DNA from: Devosia faecipullorum
GTDB taxonomy: Bacteria > Pseudomonadota > Alphaproteobacteria > Rhizobiales > Devosiaceae
DNA: 64,000 nt
Reading direction: 5' to 3'
NCBI RefSeq assembly: GCF_015158295.1
Contig: NZ_JACDXV010000001.1
Coordinates: forward strand, 372,001 to 436,000
Shown: piece by piece, positions 5,924-18,124 of the stretch
How positions within the stretch are numbered: position 1 is the first letter of the stretch
How the letters are laid out: every line of letters starts with the position of its first letter
The notes under the pieces: model-generated
The model's input: only the letters and a program-made list of their open reading frames with translations
Told to the model about the DNA's origin: nothing
Databases searched by the model: none
Program-made: the position numbers and the translations under genes

Positions 5924-6664
5924 TCAGGAGCGGATGTCGTTATAGGCCTTGGTGGCCGGCTTGCCCCGGAACGTCACCCAGAAGAAATTGAGCGTATAGG
6001 TGCCAGCGGTACGAAACACGCCTTCCTTTTCAAGCCGTCGGCCGGAAGTCTTCATCTTGAGCGCGAAGGTAAATTTAACTCCGCCGACCTTGGACAGGCG
6101 CACCGCCACATCGGTATCTTCACCGAAGAACTCGATGGTCCGGTCATAGCCGCCGACCGCTGCCCAGGCATCGCGTTTGAACACGAAATTGCCGCCCTGC
6201 ACCACCGAGCCCACGCGCAGCACGAAGCGGTTGAGCAGGTAGATGAGATAGGTCAGCCCATAAAACATGCCGACCAGGGCGCGATTATGCAGCGCCATAT
6301 CATAGTAGATATAAGGGCCGCTGAGACAGACCAGCTTGGAATCCTTGTCGAATTCGCGCCGAACCACATCGAGCCAGCCTTCAGGAACGATCGTGTCGCT
6401 GTCGATATTGGCGACCAGGTCATAGCCTTCGCTGGCGGCGAAACCGGCATCGCGGGCATTGACCAGCCCCTTTTTGGGCTCGTCCACCACCCGCACGCCC
6501 TCGAACGAGCGGGCGATTTCGCCGGTGCGGTCGGTGGAGGCATTGTTGACCACGATGACATCGGCATTCATGCCCGACCGCGCGATCTCCGCCTGCACCG
6601 ATTCAAGACACTTCCCGATCAGCGCCTCTTCATTATAGGCGGGGATGACAAAGGCCAGTTTCAT
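5924..6664 (-). CDS. Family 2 glycosyltransferase
   Basis: 246 aa from MKLAFVIPAYNEEALIGKCL; a GAGGAA ribosome site lies eight bases upstream. The frame is open back to 6751, but that extension does not look like the family and overlaps the kinase gene. GT-A features: the N-terminal AYNEE loop, VNNASTDRTGEIA (nucleotide binding), NIDSDTIVPEGWL (DxD-like metal site) and FFGEDTDVAVRL (the ED acceptor/base motif). One hydrophobic segment near residues 145-165 (LVGMFYGLTYLIYLLNRFVL) may be a membrane association. Probably transfers a sugar to a lipid or surface glycan. It starts 83 bases after the symporter-kinase gene. Confidence 0.88.
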   Translation of the reverse strand: MKLAFVIPAYNEEALIGKCLESVQAEIARSGMNADVIVVNNASTDRTGEIARSFEGVRVVDEPKKGLVNARDAGFAASEGYDLVANIDSDTIVPEGWLDVVRREFDKDSKLVCLSGPYIYYDMALHNRALVGMFYGLTYLIYLLNRFVLRVGSVVQGGNFVFKRDAWAAVGGYDRTIEFFGEDTDVAVRLSKVGGVKFTFALKMKTSGRRLEKEGVFRTAGTYTLNFFWVTFRGKPATKAYNDIRS

Positions 6665-6747
6665 CGCATTCCTCATGCCGGCTGGGCGGCGGTGTCCAAT
6701 CCTGTGCACATAGCGCGCAGCGAAGCCATCGGCAACCTTGGGCTCAA

Positions 6748-9459
6748 TCACCCCTCTCGCCCAGCGACCGGAAGCCGGACCCGAAAACAGGCGCCGGGCA
6801 TCGGTCCGGGAACCAGTTCGAGCACCCCATTCATCCGGGCGATGATCTGGCGGCTGATGGCGAGGCCAAGCCCCGCACCGCCCTGATCGCCCGAGCCGGA
6901 TACGCCACGCCAGAATTTCTCGAAGATCATCTTGCGCTCGGTCTTGCCGATGCCCGGACCATTATCCGAGACTTCCACCACATAATTGCCGTTGCGCACC
7001 GATGAGGTGACGAGCACCACGGGATTGTCCACGTCGTTATATTTGACCGCGTTGGAAATCAGGTTGATGAACACCTGGCACAACCGGTCCGCATCGCCCT
7101 CCACCATGGTCGTATGCGCCCGCTCGCCCAGCTCCACTCGCATGCCCTTCTGCCGCAACAGCGCGTCGCAGACACTGAGCGCCCGGTTCAGCGCGTCCTC
7201 GGCATCGACAGGGGCGTTCTGCCAGGTCCGCTCGCCCCGCTCCAGCGCGCTCAGGTCGAGGATTTCGTCGAGCAGCTTGGTCAGCCGCATGCTCTCCTGA
7301 TGGATGGTGGAGAGAAACCGCCTGCGCTGGACTTCATCAAGTTCCCCGGTGTCGAGCAGGATTTCCGAGAACGAGCGGATCGACGTCATCGGCGTGCGCA
7401 CTTCATGGCTCACCTGACTCAGGAATTCGTCCTTCTGGCTGTCCAGCTCGCGCAATTGCGCATTGGCGTCTTCCAGCTTGCGCGCCGTCAGGCGCAGTTC
7501 CGCCGAGGTCTTTTCCAATTGCTGGGAATATTCGATGACCTGCTGGGTTTCGTCGGCCATCTGCATCATTTCTTCCAGCGATACGTCGCCGCCGGCCACC
7601 ACCTTGGACAGCATAACATGCGCCGAGGATGCGCCGATGGACCCGGCAAGTTCGCGTTCCAGCCCGCCGATGAATTCCGATGTCGGCTCCAGCTGCGCCG
7701 GATCGACCCCCGATTCCAGTGCCGCCGCTTCGAACAGCGCCACGGCCCGCTTCTCGCCCAACACACGCTCGGCGACGAAGAACAGGTCATTGGCCGTGGC
7801 CGAACCGGCGAGAAAGTTGCGCTGCGGCAAGCCGTGGCGGCGGAAAATATCAACAAAGGCCGTCGCCTGGATGCGTTCGAGCGAGGATGGCCGCGTCATC
7901 AGCGATCCGAGCGTCAGGATGAGCGTATTGATGGACAGGCTCCAGAATGCCGCATGCGCCAGCGGATCCCAGCCCTCCAGCCCGAACATGGCCTCCGGCC
8001 GCAGCCAGACAATGCCCCACGGCCCCTCCTCGAGCAGCACCGACACCAGCGGCGAAACCGAGGCCAGGGAGGGCAGGAAGCAGGTCCAGGCCCAGATGAT
8101 CGCACCCACCAGAATGGCGGTCGTCACTGCCTTGAGCGAGGCATCGCGCCAGAAGATCGCCGCCAGCAGCGCCGGAAAGAACTGCGCTATGGCCGTGAAG
8201 GAGATCAGCCCGATTGGCGCCAGCGCATCGGAATCGCGGGTGAAAAAGAAATAGAAGAAACCCAGCAACAGGATGAGGACGATAGCGAAGCGCCGCGCGA
8301 TCAGCAGCACGCTGCTGACGCCCTGCCCGTCTCCGCTCTGCGAGACAGCGCCCAATTTGAGCACCAGCGGCATCATGATGTGGTTGGACACCATGATCGA
8401 GAGCGCGATGGATTCCAGGATGATCATTGATGTAGCGGATGAAAAACCGCCGATAAAAGCAAAGAGAGCCAGCGCATTCTGCCCCGCTGACAATGGCAGG
8501 GTCAGGGCGAACATGTCGGGATTGGAGCCTTCGGGCATCACCGTCAGCCCATAGACGGCGATGGGAATGATGAAGATGCTCATCAGCATCATATAGGCCG
8601 GGAAGGCCCAGCCGGCGACGCGCAGGTGGTTTTCGTCCGAATTCTCCACCACCGTCACCTGGAATTGCCGCGGCAGGCAGATGATGGCGGCGATGGACAG
8701 GACCAGCGTGGTGATCCAGCGGCTGTCGAAACTGGCCGAGGTGTCGAAAGCGAAGCCCTTCGCCGCCGCCTGGGTGAATATGCCTTCGACCCCGCCCCCG
8801 ATATAGACGACGAAGACGCCAACGGCGACCAGCGCGGTCAGCTTGACCACGGCCTCGAAGGCAATTGCCGCCACGACGCCGTGATGCTGCTCCTTGGCGT
8901 CGACATGCCGCGTGCCAAACAGGATGGTGAAGAGCGCCATGGCCGCCGCCACGCCCAGCGCCAGCCCCACATCGTCGATGCCGGTAAGGCTGCCGCGCCC
9001 GAATTCAGAGGCCCCGGCCACTGCCTGGATGGACGAGGTCACCGCCTTGAGCTGCAAGGCGATATAGGGCGCGATGCCGATCACAGCGATGCAGGTCACC
9101 AGCACGCCGAGCCGGCTGGATTTGCCGAACCGGGACGATAGCAGGTCGGCCACGGAGGTGATCCGATGCAGGTGGCTGATGCGCACCAGACGGCGGAGCA
9201 GGAAATACCAGCCCACGAAAACCAGCGTCGGGCCGAGATAGATGGTGAGGAATTCGAGCCCGCTGCGCGCCGCATTGCCCACCGCGCCATAAAAGGTCCA
9301 GCTCGTGCAATAGACCGAAATCGAGAGCGTATAGACCGCCGGCGAATTGAGCCATGAGCGCTTGTTGGCCCGCGCCCGCCTGTCTCCGAAATAGGCCAGC
9401 ACGAATAGCAGGCCGACATAGGCGACGGAGGTGGCGATGACGAAATCGGCGGATAGCAT
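6748..9459 (-). CDS. Sodium/solute symporter - histidine kinase fusion
   Basis: 903 aa. Residues 1 to about 510 are a multi-helix SSS-family transporter domain (typical features: ITSVADLLSSRFGKS, PRQFQVTVVE). A linker and coiled coil (about 610-670) leads to a DHp domain with the H-box SHEVRTPM, His685 being the phosphoacceptor, and a HATPase domain with the N-box NLISNAVKYN (about 800), DNGPGIG and a G2 box GGAGLGLAIS. No PAS or receiver domain. The build resembles CbrA/CrbS-type sensor kinases, several of which respond to amino acids or acetate. The gene overlaps the stop of the small membrane-protein gene (TGATG), so the two are translationally coupled. The ligand is unknown; transport activity cannot be judged from sequence. 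Confidence 0.9.
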   Translation of the reverse strand: MLSADFVIATSVAYVGLLFVLAYFGDRRARANKRSWLNSPAVYTLSISVYCTSWTFYGAVGNAARSGLEFLTIYLGPTLVFVGWYFLLRRLVRISHLHRITSVADLLSSRFGKSSRLGVLVTCIAVIGIAPYIALQLKAVTSSIQAVAGASEFGRGSLTGIDDVGLALGVAAAMALFTILFGTRHVDAKEQHHGVVAAIAFEAVVKLTALVAVGVFVVYIGGGVEGIFTQAAAKGFAFDTSASFDSRWITTLVLSIAAIICLPRQFQVTVVENSDENHLRVAGWAFPAYMMLMSIFIIPIAVYGLTVMPEGSNPDMFALTLPLSAGQNALALFAFIGGFSSATSMIILESIALSIMVSNHIMMPLVLKLGAVSQSGDGQGVSSVLLIARRFAIVLILLLGFFYFFFTRDSDALAPIGLISFTAIAQFFPALLAAIFWRDASLKAVTTAILVGAIIWAWTCFLPSLASVSPLVSVLLEEGPWGIVWLRPEAMFGLEGWDPLAHAAFWSLSINTLILTLGSLMTRPSSLERIQATAFVDIFRRHGLPQRNFLAGSATANDLFFVAERVLGEKRAVALFEAAALESGVDPAQLEPTSEFIGGLERELAGSIGASSAHVMLSKVVAGGDVSLEEMMQMADETQQVIEYSQQLEKTSAELRLTARKLEDANAQLRELDSQKDEFLSQVSHEVRTPMTSIRSFSEILLDTGELDEVQRRRFLSTIHQESMRLTKLLDEILDLSALERGERTWQNAPVDAEDALNRALSVCDALLRQKGMRVELGERAHTTMVEGDADRLCQVFINLISNAVKYNDVDNPVVLVTSSVRNGNYVVEVSDNGPGIGKTERKMIFEKFWRGVSGSGDQGGAGLGLAISRQIIARMNGVLELVPGPMPGACFRVRLPVAGREG

Positions 9460-9692
9460 CAGCCGTCGCCCTCTTCCCGGGGCGCCGTGGGGTCCGGCGC
9501 CAGGTAATGAGTCAGCAGCACGGTGCCGAGGATCAGCACCAGCCAGATGAAGAAGAGATAGACGACGATCTGCGGGACGCCGAACACAGTGCTGTCACGG
9601 TTGAATAGGGTCACCACCGGCGGCACGAGCACAACAAGCCCCATCACCGTCAGCAGGAGCATTCCCCCGACGACCCTACGCCTCTCCGACAT
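9459..9692 (-). CDS. Small two-helix membrane protein, partner of the symporter-kinase
   Basis: 77 aa from MSERRRVVGGMLLLTVMG, with two hydrophobic helices at about residues 8-27 and 40-61 and an acidic tail ending REEGDG. Its start lies inside the end of the response-regulator gene (17-base overlap) and its stop overlaps the kinase start, so it is locked into the operon. By position and size it resembles the small subunits (DUF485/DUF4212 kind) that accompany SSS permeases such as acetate permease, but no sequence match is claimed. Likely a subunit or stabiliser of the symporter domain. Confidence 0.75.
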   Translation of the reverse strand: MSERRRVVGGMLLLTVMGLVVLVPPVVTLFNRDSTVFGVPQIVVYLFFIWLVLILGTVLLTHYLAPDPTAPREEGDG

Positions 9693-10059
9693 TGTCACCC
9701 AGCAATTTTCGCACCGCCCCCACCACTTCGGAATTGGAATATGGCTTGGTGACGAAACTGTCGGCGCCCAGTTCCTCGGCGATGCGCCGATCCTGTTGCT
9801 GGCCCTTTGCGGTCAGGATCAGCACCGGCAGGTCGCGCGTTTCCGCATCGGCGCGCAATTGCCTGAGCACATCGAACCCGCTTCTTTTGGGCAGCATGAC
9901 GTCGAGCACCAGGACGCGCGGCGGCGCACGGCGCACCCGCTCCAGCACAGCTTCGCCATCCGTCACCGATTCGATGCTCCAGCCGGCGCGGCGCAGGATG
10001 AAATCGAGCGATTCGAGAATGCTCGGCTCGTCTTCGGCTATCAGGACATCGATGCCCAA
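9676..10059 (-). CDS. Single-domain response regulator
   Basis: 127 aa from a TTG codon (LGIDVLIAEDEPS) preceded by the purine-rich GGGGGAGA; the frame is open to 10116 but the extra 19 residues are unlike a receiver. All receiver residues are present: acidic pair in AEDEP, phosphoacceptor Asp in VLDVMLP, Thr in LTAKG, Lys in TKPYS. There is no output domain, so it must act by protein contact or phosphotransfer. It sits 84 bases after the ScfR-like regulator gene and overlaps the next gene, placing it between a transcription factor and a kinase in one operon. Confidence 0.88.
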   Translation of the reverse strand: MGIDVLIAEDEPSILESLDFILRRAGWSIESVTDGEAVLERVRRAPPRVLVLDVMLPKRSGFDVLRQLRADAETRDLPVLILTAKGQQQDRRIAEELGADSFVTKPYSNSEVVGAVRKLLGDNVGEA

Positions 10060-10143
10060 ATTCTCCCCCGGTTTGTTCCCGGTCTCCCCACCGCGAACAT
10101 CCGCACTAAACCGCAATCGCGAGTTTTCGCCAAGCGCTATTCC

Positions 10144-11745
10144 TCATGGCACCAGCGGCGCGCGCAGCGGCTTCTCGCTCAGGGATGGCCCCAGGGCTTC
10201 CTCCTGCCGGCTGGCGCAATCGGAACGCGTGCAGAGCCGGCAAGTCGGCCCCACCGGCACGTCGGCGTCGTGATTACCCAGATCGAGGCCCTGTGCATAA
10301 ACCGTCCCATCGGCATGCATCACGTCGCAGGCCAGCATGATCGAGGCGGTCACCGGAGGCTGGTGAAAGGCCGCAGCACGGCGCTGCACCGTGCGCGCGA
10401 CAAACAGATAGCGCGATCCATCGGAAAACCGCACCACCTGCCGCAGCGGCATGTCCGGCGTGCGGAACGCGCCATAAATGGCCCAGAGCGGGCAGGCATG
10501 GCCCGAATAGGGCAGCAGCAGGCTCGGCAGCGGGAAATGCTTGGTCAGCCGTCCGGCGGGGTCGGAGCGCAGGAAACCGAACGGGATGCCCCCTTCCCCC
10601 TTGCGCCGCAGCGTCACCAGCCGATGCGCCACCTGCTCGTAGCTGGCATTGTAGTTCTGCCGCAATTGGTCGATGTCATAGGCCGCGTCCTCGGCCAGTT
10701 CCAGAAATTCGGAATAGGGAAACACCATGGCCCCGGCGAGATAGGAGCCGAGGGCCCGCCGCGCCAGCCGCCGCGCCGCCACGCTGCCCAGCGCCGCCTT
10801 CTGCAATTCTTCCTCGATGGTTTCGTCCGCCGCCAGCTCGCCATAGAGCCGGGCCAGCTGGAATTGCCTCGTGGCCAGCGTAGTCGCTCCCGCCAGCCAC
10901 ATGGTCCCGATCTCTGGCAGGAACCGATACTGCCCCGGAAAATTCGCTTCGCCGCCCGGAGGCGCGCCCCCCACCACGATGTGCAGACCGAAGCGCCGCT
11001 CCAGCAGGTCGGTCAGGGTCCGCATGCCGAATGACCCCTCGATCTCGATCTCCCGGCGCAGGCTGGCAGCGACTTCTTCCAGCTCGGGAAAATGATTGCG
11101 CCGTTCGATCAGCAGGTCGTCGATCTCACGCGCTGGCGAAATCGACCGCCTTTCGGCGCTGGCATTGTCGAAATAGCCGATCATGTTGCGCGCGACATCG
11201 CTGAGATTGCGGGTCTCGCGCCCGATTGCTGCAAGAAAGCGCTGCCGCTCCGCCTCGTCGAGGTCCGGCACTTCCTCCAGAATTTCCGCGCTCGAACGCA
11301 CTGCGGTGATGCCGGAAAGTACCTGATGCAGCAATTGCATCAGCAGCGGATCGCTGCGCAGCCGGTCGGCATAGGCATCGGCGCTGGCGATGGCGTCCGA
11401 ATAGGCCCGGTGCAGGCGCGCCAGCGCCGTGGCGCTGGCCGGATATTGCGCCACCAATTGCCGTCGCTCGTCGGGCTGGAACGGCAGGGATTCGACCATG
11501 GGGTCGGCATAGGTTTCTTCGAGGTCGGCCAGCAATTTCTGCTCGGCCTGCCCAGTGAGGTCGCCGATATCGATCTGCAAATGATGGGCGACCCGCTGCA
11601 ACAGCGTCCCGCCGACATCGCGTTTGTTGTTTTCGATCAGGTTCAGATAGCTGGGCGAGATGCCGACCAGGCGCGCCAGCGCCGCCTGGGAAATCTTCAA
11701 CGATTTCCGCCTGTTGCTGATCCGGAATCCGATCGGCGCCCTCAT
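10144..11745 (-). CDS. ScfR-like XRE-family transcriptional regulator with a DHp-like segment
   Basis: 533 aa; the ATG has a strong GGAGGGGAG ribosome site. Residues 5-65 are an XRE helix-turn-helix (SLKISQAALARLVGISPSYL). Residues 133-194 resemble a histidine-kinase dimerisation helix pair: HQVLSGITAVRSSAEIL lines up with the kinase pattern HELRTPLTAIRGYAELL, His140 falling on the phosphoacceptor. An IrrE-like stretch follows but without HExxH. The C-terminal 150 residues are Cys-containing (CPLWAIYG, CDVMHADG, PTCRLCTRSDC), as in the short-chain fatty acyl-CoA regulator (ScfR/RamB) family. Known relatives control acetate or propionate metabolism. First gene of the minus-strand operon; a palindrome lies just upstream. 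Confidence 0.85.
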   Translation of the reverse strand: MRAPIGFRISNRRKSLKISQAALARLVGISPSYLNLIENNKRDVGGTLLQRVAHHLQIDIGDLTGQAEQKLLADLEETYADPMVESLPFQPDERRQLVAQYPASATALARLHRAYSDAIASADAYADRLRSDPLLMQLLHQVLSGITAVRSSAEILEEVPDLDEAERQRFLAAIGRETRNLSDVARNMIGYFDNASAERRSISPAREIDDLLIERRNHFPELEEVAASLRREIEIEGSFGMRTLTDLLERRFGLHIVVGGAPPGGEANFPGQYRFLPEIGTMWLAGATTLATRQFQLARLYGELAADETIEEELQKAALGSVAARRLARRALGSYLAGAMVFPYSEFLELAEDAAYDIDQLRQNYNASYEQVAHRLVTLRRKGEGGIPFGFLRSDPAGRLTKHFPLPSLLLPYSGHACPLWAIYGAFRTPDMPLRQVVRFSDGSRYLFVARTVQRRAAAFHQPPVTASIMLACDVMHADGTVYAQGLDLGNHDADVPVGPTCRLCTRSDCASRQEEALGPSLSEKPLRAPLVP

Positions 11746-11770
11746 GATCTCCCCTCCGGGGCTGGGCAAA

Positions 11771-11788
11771 TTGTCAACGTTTTGACAA
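11771..11788. promoter_or_regulatory. Perfect palindrome, probable operator of the ScfR-like regulator
   Basis: TTGTCAACGTTTTGACAA is a 7-4-7 perfect inverted repeat lying 26 bases upstream of the regulator start and about 150 bases before the divergent ABC operon. Its position suggests autoregulation and control of the divergent genes. The right arm, TTGACA, could also serve as a -35 element on the plus strand, but no good -10 is seen at standard spacing. Confidence 0.6.
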
Positions 11789-11934
11789 ATACCCACAAAG
11801 AACAGATCAACAATTTACAATTTTCTAGAGGAATTACAATGGCCTATTGCCGCCATTTTCAAATGCGCCGAATACTAGGCAGGCGGTGAACCTCCGACGA
11901 TGTATCGGACGTCCCGCGCCAAAGGAGGAGATCT

Positions 11935-13290
11935 ATGACACTTTTGAAGCGCGGGTTCTCCCGCCGTAAAGTGCTGCAAACCGGCATGGCCGGCATTATC
12001 GGCACGGGCGTTGCGCCCATGATGTTCACCAAGGGCGTCTGGGCGCAGGAATTCTGCAACAACCCCACTGGCGACAGCGTCACTATCGGCCTCAACCTGC
12101 CCCTGACCGGCGCTTATGCCGAAGAAGGCGCGGACGAGCTCAAGGCCTACGAGCTTGCCATCAAGCACCTCAATGGTGAAGGCGATGGCGGCCTGCTCAA
12201 TGTGCTGACCCCGTCCGCCCTCAAGGGCAACGGCATTCTCGGCAAGAAGGTCGGCTATGTGTCCTCGGACAGCCAGACCAAGTCCGACGTTGCCCGCGCC
12301 GGCGCCACCCGCATGATCGAGCGCGACGGCGCCATCATGATCACCGGCGGCACGTCTTCGGGCGAAGCCATCGCGGTCCAGAGCCTGTGCCAGGAAAAGG
12401 GCATCATGTTCATGGCCGGGCTGACCCATTCCAACGACACCACCGGCAAGGACAAGCGTCGTTACGGCTTCCGCCATTTCTTCAACGCCTATCAGTCCGG
12501 CATCGCGCTGGGCCCGGTTCTGGCCGAGCAATATGGCGGCGAGCGCCGCGCCTATCACCTGACCGCCGACTATACCTGGGGCTGGACGCAGGAAGAATCG
12601 ATCAAGGCCACGACAGAAGGTCTGGGCTGGGATACCGTGGCAACCGTGCGCACGCCGCTCGGGTCCTCCGACTATTCCCAATACCTCACCCCGATTCTGA
12701 ATTCGGGTGCGGACGTGCTGATCCTCAACCATTACGGTCTGGACATGGTGAACTCGCTGCCGCAGGCAGTCCAGTTCGGCCTGCGTGACCGTCAGGCCAA
12801 TGGCAAGCAGTTCGAAATCATCGTTCCGATGTTCTCCGAACTGATGGCCAAGGGCGCCGGTGAGGCCGTGCGCGGCGTTTTCGGCACCTCCAACTGGCAC
12901 TGGAACCTTCAGGATCCGGGCTCCATCGCCTTCACCAAGTCCTTTGGTGCGGAATATGGCGCTCCGCCCTCGCAGGCTGCTCATACCTGCTACGTTCAGA
13001 CGCTGCTCTATGCAGACGCGGTTGAACGCGCCGGCACCTTCTATCCGCCTGAAGTCATCAAGGCGCTGGAAGGTTTCGAGTTCGACGGCATGGGCAATGG
13101 TCGCACGCTGTACCGCGCCGACGACCATCAGTGCATGAAGTCGGTTCTGGTTGTGCAGGGTAACGACAATCCCTCCAGCGAGTTCGACGTCCTCAACATC
13201 GTCCAGGAAGTGGATCGCGAGACCACCACCTACGATCCGGCGATCTTCGGCGGCGAACTCGGCCCCGCAGAACCCGCACCGCAGTGCTGA
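11935..13290 (+). CDS. ABC transporter substrate-binding protein (Liv/Peripla_BP_6 family)
   Basis: 451 aa with a very strong ribosome site (AAAGGAGGAG). The N-terminus has a Tat-like signal, SRRKVLQTG, with a hydrophobic stretch and WAQE cleavage region. The body matches the branched-chain amino-acid-type binding fold: VTIGLNLPLTGAYAEEG, ATRMIERDGAIMITGGTSSG, AYHLTADYTWGW. Several cysteines (FCNN near the mature N-terminus, SLCQE, HTCYV, HQCMK, PQC-stop) suggest disulfides, unusual for LivJ. It binds an unknown ligand in the periplasm and hands it to the permease encoded downstream. Divergent from the ScfR-like regulator. Confidence 0.88.
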   Translation: MTLLKRGFSRRKVLQTGMAGIIGTGVAPMMFTKGVWAQEFCNNPTGDSVTIGLNLPLTGAYAEEGADELKAYELAIKHLNGEGDGGLLNVLTPSALKGNGILGKKVGYVSSDSQTKSDVARAGATRMIERDGAIMITGGTSSGEAIAVQSLCQEKGIMFMAGLTHSNDTTGKDKRRYGFRHFFNAYQSGIALGPVLAEQYGGERRAYHLTADYTWGWTQEESIKATTEGLGWDTVATVRTPLGSSDYSQYLTPILNSGADVLILNHYGLDMVNSLPQAVQFGLRDRQANGKQFEIIVPMFSELMAKGAGEAVRGVFGTSNWHWNLQDPGSIAFTKSFGAEYGAPPSQAAHTCYVQTLLYADAVERAGTFYPPEVIKALEGFEFDGMGNGRTLYRADDHQCMKSVLVVQGNDNPSSEFDVLNIVQEVDRETTTYDPAIFGGELGPAEPAPQC

Positions 13291-13312
13291 GCGCGTAACC
13301 TTCGCTCTATCC

Positions 13313-13395
13313 AACGTCGTCATTGCCCGGCTCGTCCGGGCAATCCATTCCGCCAACGCGCCGATGGACCGCCGGGACAAGCCCGGCGGTGACGA
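13313..13395. repeat. Double palindromic intergenic repeat inside the liv operon
   Basis: Two GC-rich inverted repeats: 13322-13344 (arms ATTGCCCGG... / ...CCGGGCAAT) and 13369-13389 (CCGCCGGG / CCCGGCGG with loop ACAAG). The same two-part unit recurs at 55941-56235 (twice) and partly at 42001, 44449 and 32300. Here it separates the binding-protein gene from the permease genes and would fold in the mRNA. Confidence 0.8.
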
Positions 13396-13437
13396 CCGAG
13401 ACGACAGAAGCGTCCTACGGCCACGCTGGAGCTACCT

Positions 13438-14469
13438 ATGTTCGAAGTCATCTTTCTGCAATTTCTCAACGGGCTCGACAAAGGCGCTGCCTATGCGCTG
13501 ATCGCCCTTGGCCTCACCCTGGTGTTCGGCACTCTGGGCGTGGTCAATTTCGCCCATGGCGCGCTCTTCATGCTCGGCGCCTTCTGCGCCGTCACGGTGC
13601 GCATGCTCCTCACCATGGAAACCGTCACCATCGACCCCGAAAAGCTCTCCCCCTGGGGCGCGCCGCTGGAAATCCGCGAGCCGCTGGTCCAGGCCTGGTT
13701 CGGCGATTTCGGCGCGGTGCTGGTCAATTATTCCGTGCCGCTGTCGATCCTGATCACCATTCCGGTCATGCTGGTCATCGGCATTGCGCTGGAGCGCGGC
13801 ATCATCAAGCACTTCTACAAGCGCCCCCATGCCGAACAGATCCTGGTGACCTTCGGCCTCGCCATCGTGGCGCAGGAAGTGATCAAGTCGATCTTCGGCC
13901 CCAACCCCATTCCCCAGCCCATGCCCACCGACCTGCGCGGCGCCGCCGACATCGGCGCCTGGCTCGGCATGCAGGCCAATGTCATCACCTATCCGATCTG
14001 GCGTCTGGTCTATTTCCTGTTCGCCGGCGTCGTGATTGGCGGCGTCTTCGCCTTCCTACAGTTCACCACATTCGGCCTGGTCGTCCGTGCCGGCATGGCC
14101 GATCGCGAAACCGTGGGCCTGCTCGGCATCAATATCGATCGCCGCTTCACCATCATGTTCGGCCTGGCGGCCGTCGTGGCGGGTGTCGCGGGCGTCATGT
14201 ACACCCCGCTCCTGCCGCCCAATTACCACATCGGCATGGACTTCCTCGTCCTCTCCTTCGTGGTGGTCGTGGTGGGTGGCATGGGCTCCCTGCCCGGCGC
14301 CGTCGCCGCGGGGTTCATGCTCGGCATCCTCCAGTCCTTCGCCTCCATGAACCAGGTAAAGGCCATTTTCCCCGGCATCGACCAGATCATCATCTATCTG
14401 ATCGCTGTCGTCATTCTGCTCGTTCGTCCGCGTGGCCTCATGGGTCGGCGCGGTGTGATGGAGACCTGA
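13438..14469 (+). CDS. Liv-type ABC permease, LivH-like
   Basis: 343 aa, a multi-helix inner-membrane permease with the family N-terminus [22 protein letters not shown] and [14 protein letters not shown], and the cytoplasmic EAA-like loop near [24 protein letters not shown] site precedes the ATG. A hydrophilic insert at about residues 60-95 ([17 protein letters not shown]) is longer than in E. coli LivH. It pairs with the LivM-like protein to form the translocation pore. Next gene starts one base after its stop. Confidence 0.9.
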
Positions 14470-14470
14470 C

Positions 14471-15613
14471 ATGAATTCCACTCTCATGTCCCGCAACGAC
14501 CTCCTGCTGCTGCTCGGATTCTCTGTCGTAGTCCTGGCCATGCCGATCTGGCTGGCGCCCTTCGGCGCCGGCTACCCGGATCTGCTGCAACGCTTCATGA
14601 TCTACGGCATCTTCGCCGTCGGCTTTAACATCCTGTTCGGCTTGACCGGCTATCTCAGCTTCGGCCATGCCGCCTTCTTCGGCGTCGGCTCCTATACCGC
14701 CGTCTGGTCGCTGAAACTGCTGACGCTCGATGCCATTCCGGCCATGGTCTTCGCCGTGATCATCTCGGGGCTTTTCGCCCTCGTCATCGGCTTCCTCTGC
14801 CTGCGCCGCTCTGGCATCTATTTCTCCATCCTCACCCTGGCCTTCGCCCAGATGAGCTACAACCTCGCCTATTCGGTGCTCACCCCGATCACCAATGGCG
14901 AAACCGGCCTGCAACTGACCCTCAACGATCCGCGCATCATCGACGCGGCGGTGGGCCATGGCTTTGTCGGCCAGCCGATCCCGACCCTGTTCGGAACCCC
15001 CATTGGCGGCTATGCCGGCTTCTATTTCTGCGCCGCCTTCCTCATCGCCGCCTTCTTCCTGGCCCAGCGCATTGCCGGCTCGCCCTTTGGCATGATGCTC
15101 AAGGCCATCAAGTCCAACCAGACCCGCATGCAGTTCACCGGGTTCAATACCCGCCCCTATGCCCTCTCCGCCTTCGTGATATCGGGCATGTATGCAGGTC
15201 TCGCCGGTGCGCTTCTGGCGGTCACCGATCCGCTTGCCGGTGCCGAACGTATGCAGTGGACGGCCTCCGGTGAAATTGTGCTCATGACCATCCTTGGTGG
15301 TGTCGGCACACTGGTCGGCCCCGTCATCGGCGCCTGGATCATCAAGTATTTCGAGAACATCCTCTCGGCGCTCAACGACAACATCCTCGCCCGCTTCTTC
15401 GACTTCCTGCCCGATGGCGTGGACACGTTCTTCGTCACCATTGTTGGCAAGTTCGTCGGCGATGGCTGGCACCTGACGCTGGGCCTGGTTTTCGTGATCA
15501 TCGTGATCTTCCTGCCCGGTGGCATCATGGAAGGCGTGCGCCGCGTCGCCTCGGCCTTCCGCAATCGGGGCAAGACGCCCCGCGCATCCAACCAGACCCA
15601 GGCCGCGGAGTAG
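14471..15613 (+). CDS. Liv-type ABC permease, LivM-like
   Basis: 380 aa, many transmembrane helices; family signatures [21 protein letters not shown] and, in the coupling loop, [19 protein letters not shown] periplasmic loop at about 140-175 ([17 protein letters not shown]) is longer than usual. The C-terminal tail is basic and soluble. Probably the second pore subunit of the same transporter; one base separates it from the livH-like gene. Confidence 0.9.
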
Positions 15614-15622
15614 GATCAGCAC

Positions 15623-16390
15623 ATGTCCAATGGAAACATTGTCCTGCACGTCGCGGACGTTCACAAGCGCTTCGGTGGCCTGCACGCCCTGGCCGACATC
15701 GACCTTCAGGTCGAGGAAGGCAAGACCCACGCCATCATCGGACCGAATGGGGCGGGCAAGTCCACCCTGCTCAACGTCATCATCGGCAAGCTGGCTCCGA
15801 CCAGCGGCCAGGTGGTGTTCGACGGCGCCATCCTGACCGGGCGCAAGCCCTATCAGATCAACCAGCTCGGCATTGCCCGCGTGTTCCAGACCCCGGAGAT
15901 CTTCGCCGATCTCTCGGTTCTGCATAACGTGATGATCCCGGCCCTCGCCAAGCGCGACGGCATGTTCAAGCTCAACATGCTCCGCACCCTCGAAAGCGAG
16001 ACCACCATCCGCGCCGAAGCCGAGGAAATGCTTGAAGATGTGGGCCTGATGGCCCGCAAGGACAGCATGGCCGGCGTGCTCTCACGCGGCGACAAGCGCC
16101 GGATGGAACTGGCCATGTGCCTGATCCAGCATCCGCGCCTGCTGCTGCTGGACGAGCCCACCGCCGGCATGAGCCGCCACGACACCAACACCACTATCGA
16201 GCTGCTCAAGAAGATCAAGAAACGCGGCATGACCAAGGTGATCATCGAGCACGACATGCACGTAGTCTTCTCGCTGGCCGACAAGATTTCCGTTCTCGCC
16301 CAGGGCCGCATCATCGCCGACGGAACGCCCGACCAGGTGCGCGGCAATCCCAAGGTCCAGGAAGCCTATCTTGGAGGAGCCCACGAATGA
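15623..16390 (+). CDS. Liv-type ABC ATPase, LivG-like
   Basis: 255 aa. Walker A GPNGAGKST at residues 40-48, Walker B LLLLDEPTAGMS, and a signature loop reading LSRGDKRRMELA rather than LSGGQ; this SRGD variant is common in LivG-like subunits. The H-loop is IIEHDM. Supplies ATP hydrolysis on the cytoplasmic face. Overlaps the next ATPase gene by four bases (ATGA). Confidence 0.92.
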   Translation: MSNGNIVLHVADVHKRFGGLHALADIDLQVEEGKTHAIIGPNGAGKSTLLNVIIGKLAPTSGQVVFDGAILTGRKPYQINQLGIARVFQTPEIFADLSVLHNVMIPALAKRDGMFKLNMLRTLESETTIRAEAEEMLEDVGLMARKDSMAGVLSRGDKRRMELAMCLIQHPRLLLLDEPTAGMSRHDTNTTIELLKKIKKRGMTKVIIEHDMHVVFSLADKISVLAQGRIIADGTPDQVRGNPKVQEAYLGGAHE

Positions 16391-17181
16391 GCGCCATTGC
16401 CATGACCGCACAAACGACCGCACAAAGCCCTGCACAAGCCTCTGCTGGCAGCCTGTCCGCCAATATCGAAACCAGCCGCCCCTTCTTCTCGGTGCGCGAC
16501 GTTCACGCCTATTACGGCGAGAGCTATATCGTGCAGGGTGTGTCGCTGGACATTCGCAAGGGCGAAATTCTTGCGCTGCTGGGCCGTAACGGGGCGGGCA
16601 AGAGTTCGACGCTACGCACCATAGCCCGCGCCGACAATCCCGAAATGCGTGGCGGTGAAATCTGGCTCGACGGCAATCCCATCCACAAGATGAAGAGTTT
16701 CGAGGCCGCCCGCGCCGGCATCCAGCTGGTGCCCGAGGATCGCCGCATCATCCAGGGCCTGACCGTGGAGGAAAACCTCAACCTGGCCAAGGTGGCCCCC
16801 GGTCATGGCTGGAGCCTCGAACAGATCTACGAGAGTTTCCCGCGCCTCGCCGAACGCCGCACCCAAGATGGCGTCACCCTTTCGGGCGGCGAACAGCAAA
16901 TGCTGGCCATTGCCCGCGCTTTGGCCCGCGATCTCAAGCTGCTGCTGCTGGATGAGCCCTATGAAGGTCTGGCGCCGGTCATCGTGCACGAGATCGAGCG
17001 CATCCTGCATTCGATCAAGCCGCTGGGCATCACCACGATCATCGTCGAGCAGAACGCCGTGGCCGCGCTCAAGCTGGCCGACCGCGCCGTGATCCTCGAT
17101 ACCGGCGAAGTCGCCTTCACCGGCACCGCCAGGGAAGTGCTCGACAATGCCGAACTCCGCCACGAATATCTGGCGATCTAG
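16387..17181 (+). CDS. Liv-type ABC ATPase, LivF-like
   Basis: 264 aa. An unusual 35-residue Ala/Gln/Ser-rich N-terminal extension precedes the ATPase core. Walker A GRNGAGKSS, signature LSGGEQQM, Walker B LLLLDEPYEGLAP and H-loop IIVEQN. The start ATG overlaps the LivG-like stop. It completes a five-gene uptake operon (binding protein, two permeases, two ATPases). Substrate is not predictable from these subunits. Confidence 0.92.
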   Translation: MSAIAMTAQTTAQSPAQASAGSLSANIETSRPFFSVRDVHAYYGESYIVQGVSLDIRKGEILALLGRNGAGKSSTLRTIARADNPEMRGGEIWLDGNPIHKMKSFEAARAGIQLVPEDRRIIQGLTVEENLNLAKVAPGHGWSLEQIYESFPRLAERRTQDGVTLSGGEQQMLAIARALARDLKLLLLDEPYEGLAPVIVHEIERILHSIKPLGITTIIVEQNAVAALKLADRAVILDTGEVAFTGTAREVLDNAELRHEYLAI

Positions 17182-17299: not shown

Positions 17300-18124
17300 C
17301 TACTCTGGGGCCTTTGGGTTCAAAGGCATGATGCCGATCTCACCCTCTCCCTCCTGAAGGCCCCAGAGTTCATCCGTCTCCGGCGCGACCGCCGCGATGG
17401 TCACACCCTCGCCCTCGAGCGCATCGCGCACCTCACGCGCCAGATCGACAGCCCCCGGCGTATCGCCATGCAGGCAGATCGAGCGCGCCGAAGATTTCAG
17501 CACCGAGCCGTCAACAGCCTCGATTTCCCCATGCAGGGCCAGCCGCAGGCAGCGCGCAATCACCGCTTCGGGATCGTGGATCACGGCCCCTTCTTCGGAA
17601 CGCGGCAATAGCAGGCCATCGGCAGTATAGGCCCGGTCGGCATAGGCTTCCCGGATGATTGGCAGCCCCACAGCCCCCGCCGCCCGCACTTGCTGGCTAT
17701 TGTCCAGCGCCAGCACCGCCATATGCGGGTCCATGGCGTGGATCGCGGCGAAGATGCCCACGGCAAAGGTCAGTTCCTCCGCCGTCTGGTTGGCCAGCGC
17801 GCCATGCAGCTTCACATAGTCGAGCGGCACGTCCACTTCGGCGGCAATATGGCGGATGAGGAACAACTGGTCCCGGATTTGGTTCAGCAATTGTTCCAGC
17901 GGCATGACCAGCCGGAAGCGCCCAAACCCCTTGCGATCCATATAGCCCGGATGCGCTCCGGCCCGCACGCCGCGCGCCTTGCACACCTTGAGGATGTGCC
18001 GGATGCTCGCTGCGTCGCCCGCATGCCCGCCACAGGCAATCGAGGCGCTCGACACGATGGCCAGCAGGTCGTCGTCGCCGCCCATGCCTTCGCCCAGATC
18101 GGCGTTGAGATCGATGCTCGTCAT
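17300..18124 (-). CDS. pxpA: 5-oxoprolinase subunit A (LamB/YcsF family)
   Basis: 274 aa. Starts MTSIDLNADLGEGMGGDDDLL, the hallmark of the YcsF/PxpA family, followed by ASIACGGHAGDAASI (conserved His in CGGHAGD) and VKLHGALANQT. With PxpB and PxpC it hydrolyses 5-oxoproline (pyroglutamate) to glutamate using ATP in the cytoplasm. Its start overlaps the pxpC stop by four bases. It is last in a pxpB-pxpC-pxpA operon that converges on the liv-type operon. Confidence 0.93.
   Translation of the reverse strand: MTSIDLNADLGEGMGGDDDLLAIVSSASIACGGHAGDAASIRHILKVCKARGVRAGAHPGYMDRKGFGRFRLVMPLEQLLNQIRDQLFLIRHIAAEVDVPLDYVKLHGALANQTAEELTFAVGIFAAIHAMDPHMAVLALDNSQQVRAAGAVGLPIIREAYADRAYTADGLLLPRSEEGAVIHDPEAVIARCLRLALHGEIEAVDGSVLKSSARSICLHGDTPGAVDLAREVRDALEGEGVTIAAVAPETDELWGLQEGEGEIGIMPLNPKAPE

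Follow-up and report, generated by a model that had tools for sequence, protein, structure and literature searches.

An ScfR-type regulator of Devosia faecipullorum with a DHp domain related to that of the adjacent symporter-kinase, and its possible control by a lone receiver

The window considered here is a stretch of 64,000 nucleotides from Devosia faecipullorum (contig NZ_JACDXV010000001.1, positions 372,001 to 436,000), and all coordinates refer to its own numbering. It contains a minus-strand operon of four genes in the order REG, RR, TM77 and HK, which encode an ScfR-type transcriptional regulator of 533 amino acids (REG, 10144..11745), a lone receiver (RR, 9676..10059), a small membrane protein of 77 amino acids (TM77, 9459..9692) and a 903-amino-acid histidine kinase fused to an SLC5/STAC symporter domain (HK, 6748..9459). 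Inserted into REG is a segment homologous to the dimerisation and histidine phosphotransfer (DHp) domain of histidine kinases. We consider it reasonably probable that REG captured the DHp of the neighbouring kinase and that the receiver docks there and sets the activity of the regulator. A reading of the DNA sequence alone had already noticed the four genes together with a divergent ATP-binding cassette (ABC) uptake operon, and had proposed that the receiver carries phosphate from the kinase to His140 of REG, thereby joining external solute sensing to acyl-CoA sensing. The genes do lie where that reading placed them, and the layout recurs across many alphaproteobacterial genera.

The captured segment, running from H-10 to H+47 around the phosphoacceptor position (11185..11358, minus strand), is specifically related to the kinase of the same operon. 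When REG was used in a six-frame search of its own genome the adjacent kinase was matched at REG residues 97-205 (1.6e-7), and the only other matches were pieces of two ScfR paralogues. A profile of the REG DHp gave 60.0 bits for the adjacent kinase as against 15.2 bits for the next best of the genome's 22 HisKA loci, and gapless identity was 21/58 with the cognate kinase compared with 6-11/58 for 12 other kinases picked by pattern. Further afield, REG residues 154-206 match the NCBIfam family CreC (3.7e-5), whilst a REG profile matches the solved kinase HK853 over positions 137-215 (2.4e-4) and DivL over positions 124-224 (0.0069). An AlphaFold model of REG, built with 50 sequences and having a mean pLDDT (predicted local distance difference test) of 87.3, folds the region into two helices (133-158 and 164-198). 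The residue at the phosphoacceptor position is His140 (codon 11326..11328, minus strand), as the sequence-only reading had it, counting from the ATG at 11745; the same residue is number 157 in the longest open reading frame. What had been described as a DHp-like segment thus shows a similarity beyond chance to CreC, HK853 and the adjacent kinase, and the bit scores, the identities and the tree described next strengthen the description to that of a DHp copied from the partner kinase itself.

In a FastTree analysis of the 58-residue DHp segments all 45 REG sequences fall into one clade (0.988) that is nested in the symporter-kinases, in a tree whose deeper nodes are weakly supported and in some cases unsupported. 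An ScfR protein devoid of a DHp, which is identical to the REG of locus L081 at 228 of 460 positions, lacks one block of 58 residues at the place of the DHp, and further DHp-less ScfR proteins have one or two gaps there. Because of this specific homology, the single clade and the insertion of about 58 residues, we read the REG DHp as the product of a single capture event, from kinase to regulator. By its homology and its histidine at the acceptor position the segment is a HisKA/DHp domain. REG does not qualify as an active histidine kinase, having no HATPase_c domain and a mostly non-acidic residue at H+1, which is Gln in the window.

The pattern of residues kept and lost within the DHp was followed in an alignment of 104 regulators, from which the DHp-less L094 was set aside to leave 103, 35 of them from the genus of the window and hence not independent. 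The acceptor position is occupied by H in 85, F in 11, Q in four and Y in three. The acidic residue at H+1, which is required for autophosphorylation, is retained in 12 and lost in 91. H+4, the phosphatase position of HisKA kinases and usually T or N, is S, T or N in 101 of the 103. This retention would suit a DHp that serves as a phosphatase or phosphate sink for phosphorylated RR, with REG not being the output at all, but the commonest residue at H+4 is Ser (44/82) rather than the usual T or N and the lone receiver would be left with no output in the operon, so that such a drain appears highly improbable. The homology of the two DHp domains might also allow REG and HK to form a mixed dimer in which the kinase phosphorylates the REG histidine in trans and the receiver takes phosphate from either; given the widespread loss of the H+1 acid, and a REG expected to be soluble as opposed to a membrane-bound HK, direct contact of this kind is highly improbable. 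The surface expected to face the receiver is largely common to regulators and kinases (82 of each, counts given in that order), with T at H+7 (68/77), R at H+10 (74/81), S at H+11 (79/73), E at H+14 (76/72) and I at H+15 (82/77). This comparison omits 8 of 90 kinases because they deviate from the exact H-box pattern, a selection that partly determines the kinase counts from H to H+5.

The histidine is kept above all where the receiver gene is close at hand. Of the 103 REGs, 75 have a receiver gene no more than 400 bp away, and their acceptor position is H in 74 and Q in one; at up to 6 kb the number is 83, with H in 80, Y in two and Q in one. With the receiver beyond 6 kb or unseen the residues are H in five, F in 11, Q in three and Y in one, where loci truncated by the end of a contig or of the fetched stretch (L031, L228, L235) are scored as unlinked. 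Counted by genus, the histidine is kept in 33 and lost in two of the linked cases and kept in five and lost in three of the unlinked ones (p = 0.037); a first Fisher test at genus level gave p = 0.003, but it was devised after the data had been seen and its lineages were counted by hand. The sequence-only reading had named a histidine that is not conserved beside the kinase as grounds for its own rejection, and these counts speak for conservation. Since the DHp homology is accompanied by retention of His and H+4, and since the histidine is kept beside the receiver, it is likely that the receiver would dock on two copies of one domain, that of the kinase and that of REG. Whether the receiver would also transfer a phosphoryl group to His140 is, on the same comparisons, about evenly balanced.

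Several observations weigh against this reading. F, Y or Q replaces the histidine in five genera, two of which have a linked receiver: Q is found in genome g15 with an adjacent receiver and Y in g316 with a receiver some 0.45 kb away. A rule set beforehand, which required His in no fewer than 95% of linked cases, was broken at genus level in newly added genomes owing to g316; this second genome set came partly from orders known to lack the histidine, and its share of H (11/21) is biased downwards. Conversely, the regulator of L183 retains its histidine although its operon has no receiver gene. At H+3 the Arg of the kinases is mostly Leu in REG. No covariation was detected at the presumed docking face when cognate and shuffled REG-HK pairs were compared (34 pairs, near-duplicates dropped; p = 0.37), the signal at other positions (p = 0.0006) being explicable by phylogeny, and a partial mirror-tree analysis of 67 loci singled out neither the REG DHp nor the HK DHp, its positive control. 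The co-variation of kinase, receiver and regulator that had been put forward as a check was therefore either absent or uninformative. Finally, pairs of sister receivers and kinases exist without any such regulator, as described below. In L183 itself (9194-10915) the genes for the small membrane protein and the kinase come immediately after REG, with no receiver gene in the fetched stretch.

A serious rival to phosphotransfer is docking alone, in which the REG DHp reads phosphorylated RR by binding, much as DivL reads phosphorylated DivK, and the histidine is but one tolerated side chain. It accommodates the F, Y and Q of the five genera, in which the fold and H+4 persist, and a Tyr is likewise present in DivL, which binds phosphorylated DivK according to the available portion of PMC4211667 and which the REG profile also matches. 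The docking positions mutated in DivL in that portion, +3, +7, +12 and +29 by our own count from Y550, compare variously with the REG and HK consensus: +7 (T) and +29 (R) agree, +12 agrees partly and +3 differs. Docking alone is nevertheless rather unlikely, as a histidine in 74 of the 75 closely linked regulators and in 33 of 35 linked genera is more than docking seems to require.

The capture and docking account can be set out as a series of steps. A solute handled by the SLC5 part of HK would prompt the kinase to autophosphorylate on His685 and then to phosphorylate the Asp of the lone receiver. Being fitted to the kinase DHp, RR would dock likewise on the copy held by REG between its DNA-binding and its acyl-CoA/Fe-S (iron-sulphur) parts, and, where the histidine is present, could pass the phosphoryl group to His140. 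Docking or transfer would set the activity of REG on the divergent promoter that it shares with the ABC operon. In its full form, a relay from the kinase His to the Asp of a lone receiver and on to the His of a DNA-binding regulator, whose acceptor was copied from the kinase that initiates the relay and merged with Fe-S/acyl-CoA sensing, the scheme stands at slightly worse than even chances. The wiring first proposed gains from the synteny, the true DHp with its His, the retention of that His beside the receiver and the intact receiver; it loses from the five genera without His and the unsupportive covariation.

RR consists of a Response_reg domain (PF00072) alone, with no DNA-binding output. 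Its start is probably the TTG at 10059, giving about 127 amino acids, a length frequent among relatives. The phosphoacceptor Asp (residue 72 of the 146-amino-acid open reading frame; 9901..9903, minus strand) is present in 96 of 96 aligned receivers, as is Thr or Ser at 102, and Lys 124 is found in 95 with one gap, in an alignment in which the query is counted twice and at least two members (L031, L089) are probably not orthologous. The active site is thus intact, as had been supposed, and the system combines a lone receiver of this kind with a His-bearing DHp acceptor, which places it, as far as sequence can tell, with arrangements of the Spo0F/Spo0B type.

Sister receivers came to light in a set of 12 genomes in which the symporter domain is present but REG is not found at 1e-66. 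Queried with the L081 REG, five of them yielded ScfR proteins at 1e-20, and among the matches listed for the 12 none covers the DHp. Loci were fetched for nine of the 12, and in eight of these a receiver lies near the kinase, 39-44% identical to RR and forming a sister group to it. The concern that the lone receiver might also occur with other partners consequently applies to the wider receiver family and not to the close orthologues examined. In L196 (5014-7263), L080 (624-2816), L195 (10016-12496), L199 (4078-6780), L197 (4395-6665) and L200 (8936-11083) a further protein adjoins the sister receiver-kinase genes; it combines a membrane segment and a PAS-like part with a 3'-5' exonuclease domain (RNase_T) and a degenerate, kinase-like DHp in which no histidine was seen at the acceptor position. 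This pseudo-DHp matches the REG-DHp profile weakly (13-28 bits), and the protein is possibly a second DHp-bearing partner of the sister receivers.

REG and the kinase also occur together. In a draw of 385 genomes from the class REG was found in 31 (at 1e-66) and the HK symporter domain in 86 (at 1e-60), and all but one of the 31 carry both. In the exception, G124, which is 68% complete, the kinase and receiver next to a REG fragment could not be assigned to this group. The co-occurrence check suggested by the sequence-only reading thus came out in its favour, with the synteny recurring and the symporter domain in 30 of 31 REG genomes as against 86 of 385 overall. In 13 more genomes, which were retrieved on account of their kinase, the layout is the same and REG is shorter, in several of them with no M78-like part; DHp and His are present in all 13. 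A draw of 398 genomes from the phylum gave six matches at that threshold, all within the same class. Thalassobaculum fulvum (L031) was the single relative obtained from a contig search with REG alone, a plasmid of Neorhizobium sp. SOG26 (L226) carries all four genes as well as the binding-protein gene divergent from them, and close relatives named in databases are mostly Devosia. DHp domains dimerise, and the existence of sister receiver-kinase pairs without REG would accord with a DHp that merely dimerises the regulator while the receiver acts elsewhere. A spacer, however, would not be expected to track the occurrence of the kinase in this manner, nor to keep His, H+4, H+7, H+10, H+11, H+14 and H+15, and a purely structural role is accordingly doubtful in the extreme.

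HK contains HisKA (PF00512, residues 675-742) and HATPase_c (PF02518) domains, and its profile matches HK853 over positions 671-908. The autophosphorylation site, His685 (codon 7405..7407, minus strand), is invariant in alignment A2. Pfam SSF (PF00474) has no match anywhere in the genome and was dropped as a label for the symporter part. This was instead defined by alignment with the solved SLC5-STAC-type kinase 10ed, which covers HK residues 7-581 (1.9e-69) and, by profile, positions 7-623 (4.3e-112; 7591..9441, minus strand). With an SLC5-STAC part fused to HisKA and HATPase_c, HK is an SLC5/STAC histidine kinase; the system departs from the CbrAB/CrbSR type, in which the cognate response regulator itself has a DNA-binding output, in that RR is only a receiver. 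We infer that 10ed is the CbrA of preprint PMC13022988, in the available part of which Lys196 of CbrA sits in the Na2 site. Lys206 of HK corresponds to index 196 of the 10ed chain and is invariant in 39 kinases of A2, and because of this the SLC5 domain of HK is predicted to be independent of sodium.

TM77 starts at the ATG at 9692 and its stop overlaps the HK start (TGATG). Two hydrophobic stretches are seen in its alignment. No convincing Pfam relative was found, and a search of the PDB with alignment A3 listed one weak unrelated chain; a suspected relationship to DUF3311 was not found. As a small membrane protein encoded directly upstream of an SLC5-STAC kinase gene and overlapping it, TM77 is CbrX-like in its position, and it shares with the Pseudomonas CbrX, as far as the available part of PMC13022988 describes it, the overlap with the kinase gene and an apparent form of two helices.

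REG itself starts at the ATG at 11745, which has a good ribosome site in front. It comprises an HTH_3 helix-turn-helix (PF01381, 6.7e-12; P0004 residues 28-80, 11557..11715, minus strand), a Peptidase_M78-like part and a C-terminal ScfRs domain (PF09856, 1.1e-42; residues 395-539, 10180..10614, minus strand), and with its XRE-type helix-turn-helix and ScfRs domain it belongs to the ScfR/IsaR class. It scored 307.8 bits against the RamB equivalog NF038139, for which the curated cut-off is 700, and was rejected as a RamB equivalog. The core of the model matches PrpR with a TM-score (template modelling score) of 0.86-0.87 according to target; PrpR and IrrE/PprI folds were among the Foldseek matches listed, and no kinase was among the best 50. 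The 4Fe4S motif of the class, in the available part of PMC6765138, is C-X2-C-X4-C together with a distant Cys, and the near-invariant C502, C505, C510 and C418 of REG are at least 90% conserved in alignment A1 (50 sequences). Of the four residues with which PrpR binds acyl-CoA, the REG alignment, as we read it with the offset anchored at Cys363, has counterparts of Arg338 and Lys347 but none of Lys217 or Lys410. Because the Fe-S cysteines are kept, acyl-CoA sensing is likely for the REG of the window. The earlier claim of such sensing does not extend to the whole family, part of which has a shortened or missing CoA-sensor region and a retained DHp. In L181, L182, L183, L189, L190, L192 and L193 the regulators have the same layout and no M78-like (CoA-sensor) part, and DHp and His remain; receiver input seems to outlive acyl-CoA sensing in these proteins.

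The divergent promoter region (11746..11934) contains one ATTTACA box (11813-11819) and an inverted repeat, TTGTCAACGTTTTGACAA (11771-11788). Across 46 regions between REG and the ABC operon there are 51 ATTTACA sites, distributed over 32 regions, whereas plain shuffling of the bases, which does not preserve dinucleotides, gives 2 on average. Because of this enrichment REG probably acts on its own promoter and that of the ABC operon. The operon (11935..17181, plus strand) encodes a binding protein, two permeases and two ATPases, which resemble urea and branched-chain amino acid systems and all score under the NCBIfam cut-offs; the second ATPase is a weak AtpD-like open reading frame in relatives. 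An acetyl-CoA synthetase gene adjoins the receiver-kinase genes in g70 and L202, and in g70 also the ABC operon; since it does so in some relatives, a short carboxylate appears the likeliest signal. Such a synthetase (PF16177, or PF00501 for the L207 copy) adjoins the receiver-kinase genes in L202, L203, L204, L205 and L207. Outside these genes, a family-2 glycosyltransferase gene (5924-6751) lies directly 3' of HK and recurs farther downstream in many loci of the same genus, and a minus-strand open reading frame (17300-18124), which may encode a LamB/YcsF-like (5-oxoprolinase subunit A) protein, faces the end of the ABC operon.

Known systems share parts of this arrangement. CbrA, CrbS (MxtR), RpuS and PrlS have the same kinase architecture as HK, and CbrX of Pseudomonas is likewise a small two-helix protein encoded just upstream, yet in the available portions of the sources CbrA, CrbS, RpuS and PrlS pair with the DNA-binding CbrB, CrbR, RpuR and PrlR, whereas here a lone receiver stands beside a DHp-bearing ScfR protein. 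PrpR (MccR), RamB and PccR have the helix-turn-helix, the ScfRs domain, the Fe-S cysteines and the PrpR fold in common with REG but no DHp; REG carries an insertion of some 58 residues that its closest DHp-less relatives lack. In the Spo0F-Spo0B and ChpT phosphorelays a DHp-type acceptor without an active kinase passes phosphate on to another receiver. The REG system resembles them in its lone receiver and its DHp-type acceptor lacking an active kinase, but whilst Spo0B and ChpT hand phosphate onward, REG itself binds DNA and has no catalytic and ATP-binding (CA) domain. DivL and DivK of Caulobacter provide an ex-kinase DHp that reads a single-domain receiver, with a Tyr as in g295 and g316; in the available part of PMC4211667, DivL, unlike REG, keeps its CA domain as a pseudokinase and is not DNA-binding.

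Judged by titles and the openings of abstracts, the literature yielded no publication on a DHp within an ScfR protein. The available part of PMC10370305 remarks that Pden_1785, an ScfR homologue of Paracoccus, clusters with genes of a two-component system, and searches with Pden_1785 and three neighbouring locus tags returned that paper only. The Paracoccus remark is the only prior hint of this wiring that was found; the system is real, conserved and unusual. If the proposed mechanism is true, it would represent a two-component output whose receiver, instead of binding DNA, acts by docking or phosphorylation on a one-component metabolite regulator, by way of a captured copy of the docking domain of its own kinase, and it would show how one- and two-component systems can come to fuse. 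It would also make testable how an ScfR regulator combines signals from outside and inside the cell, and the natural His, Tyr, Phe and Gln variants could help to separate docking from phosphotransfer.

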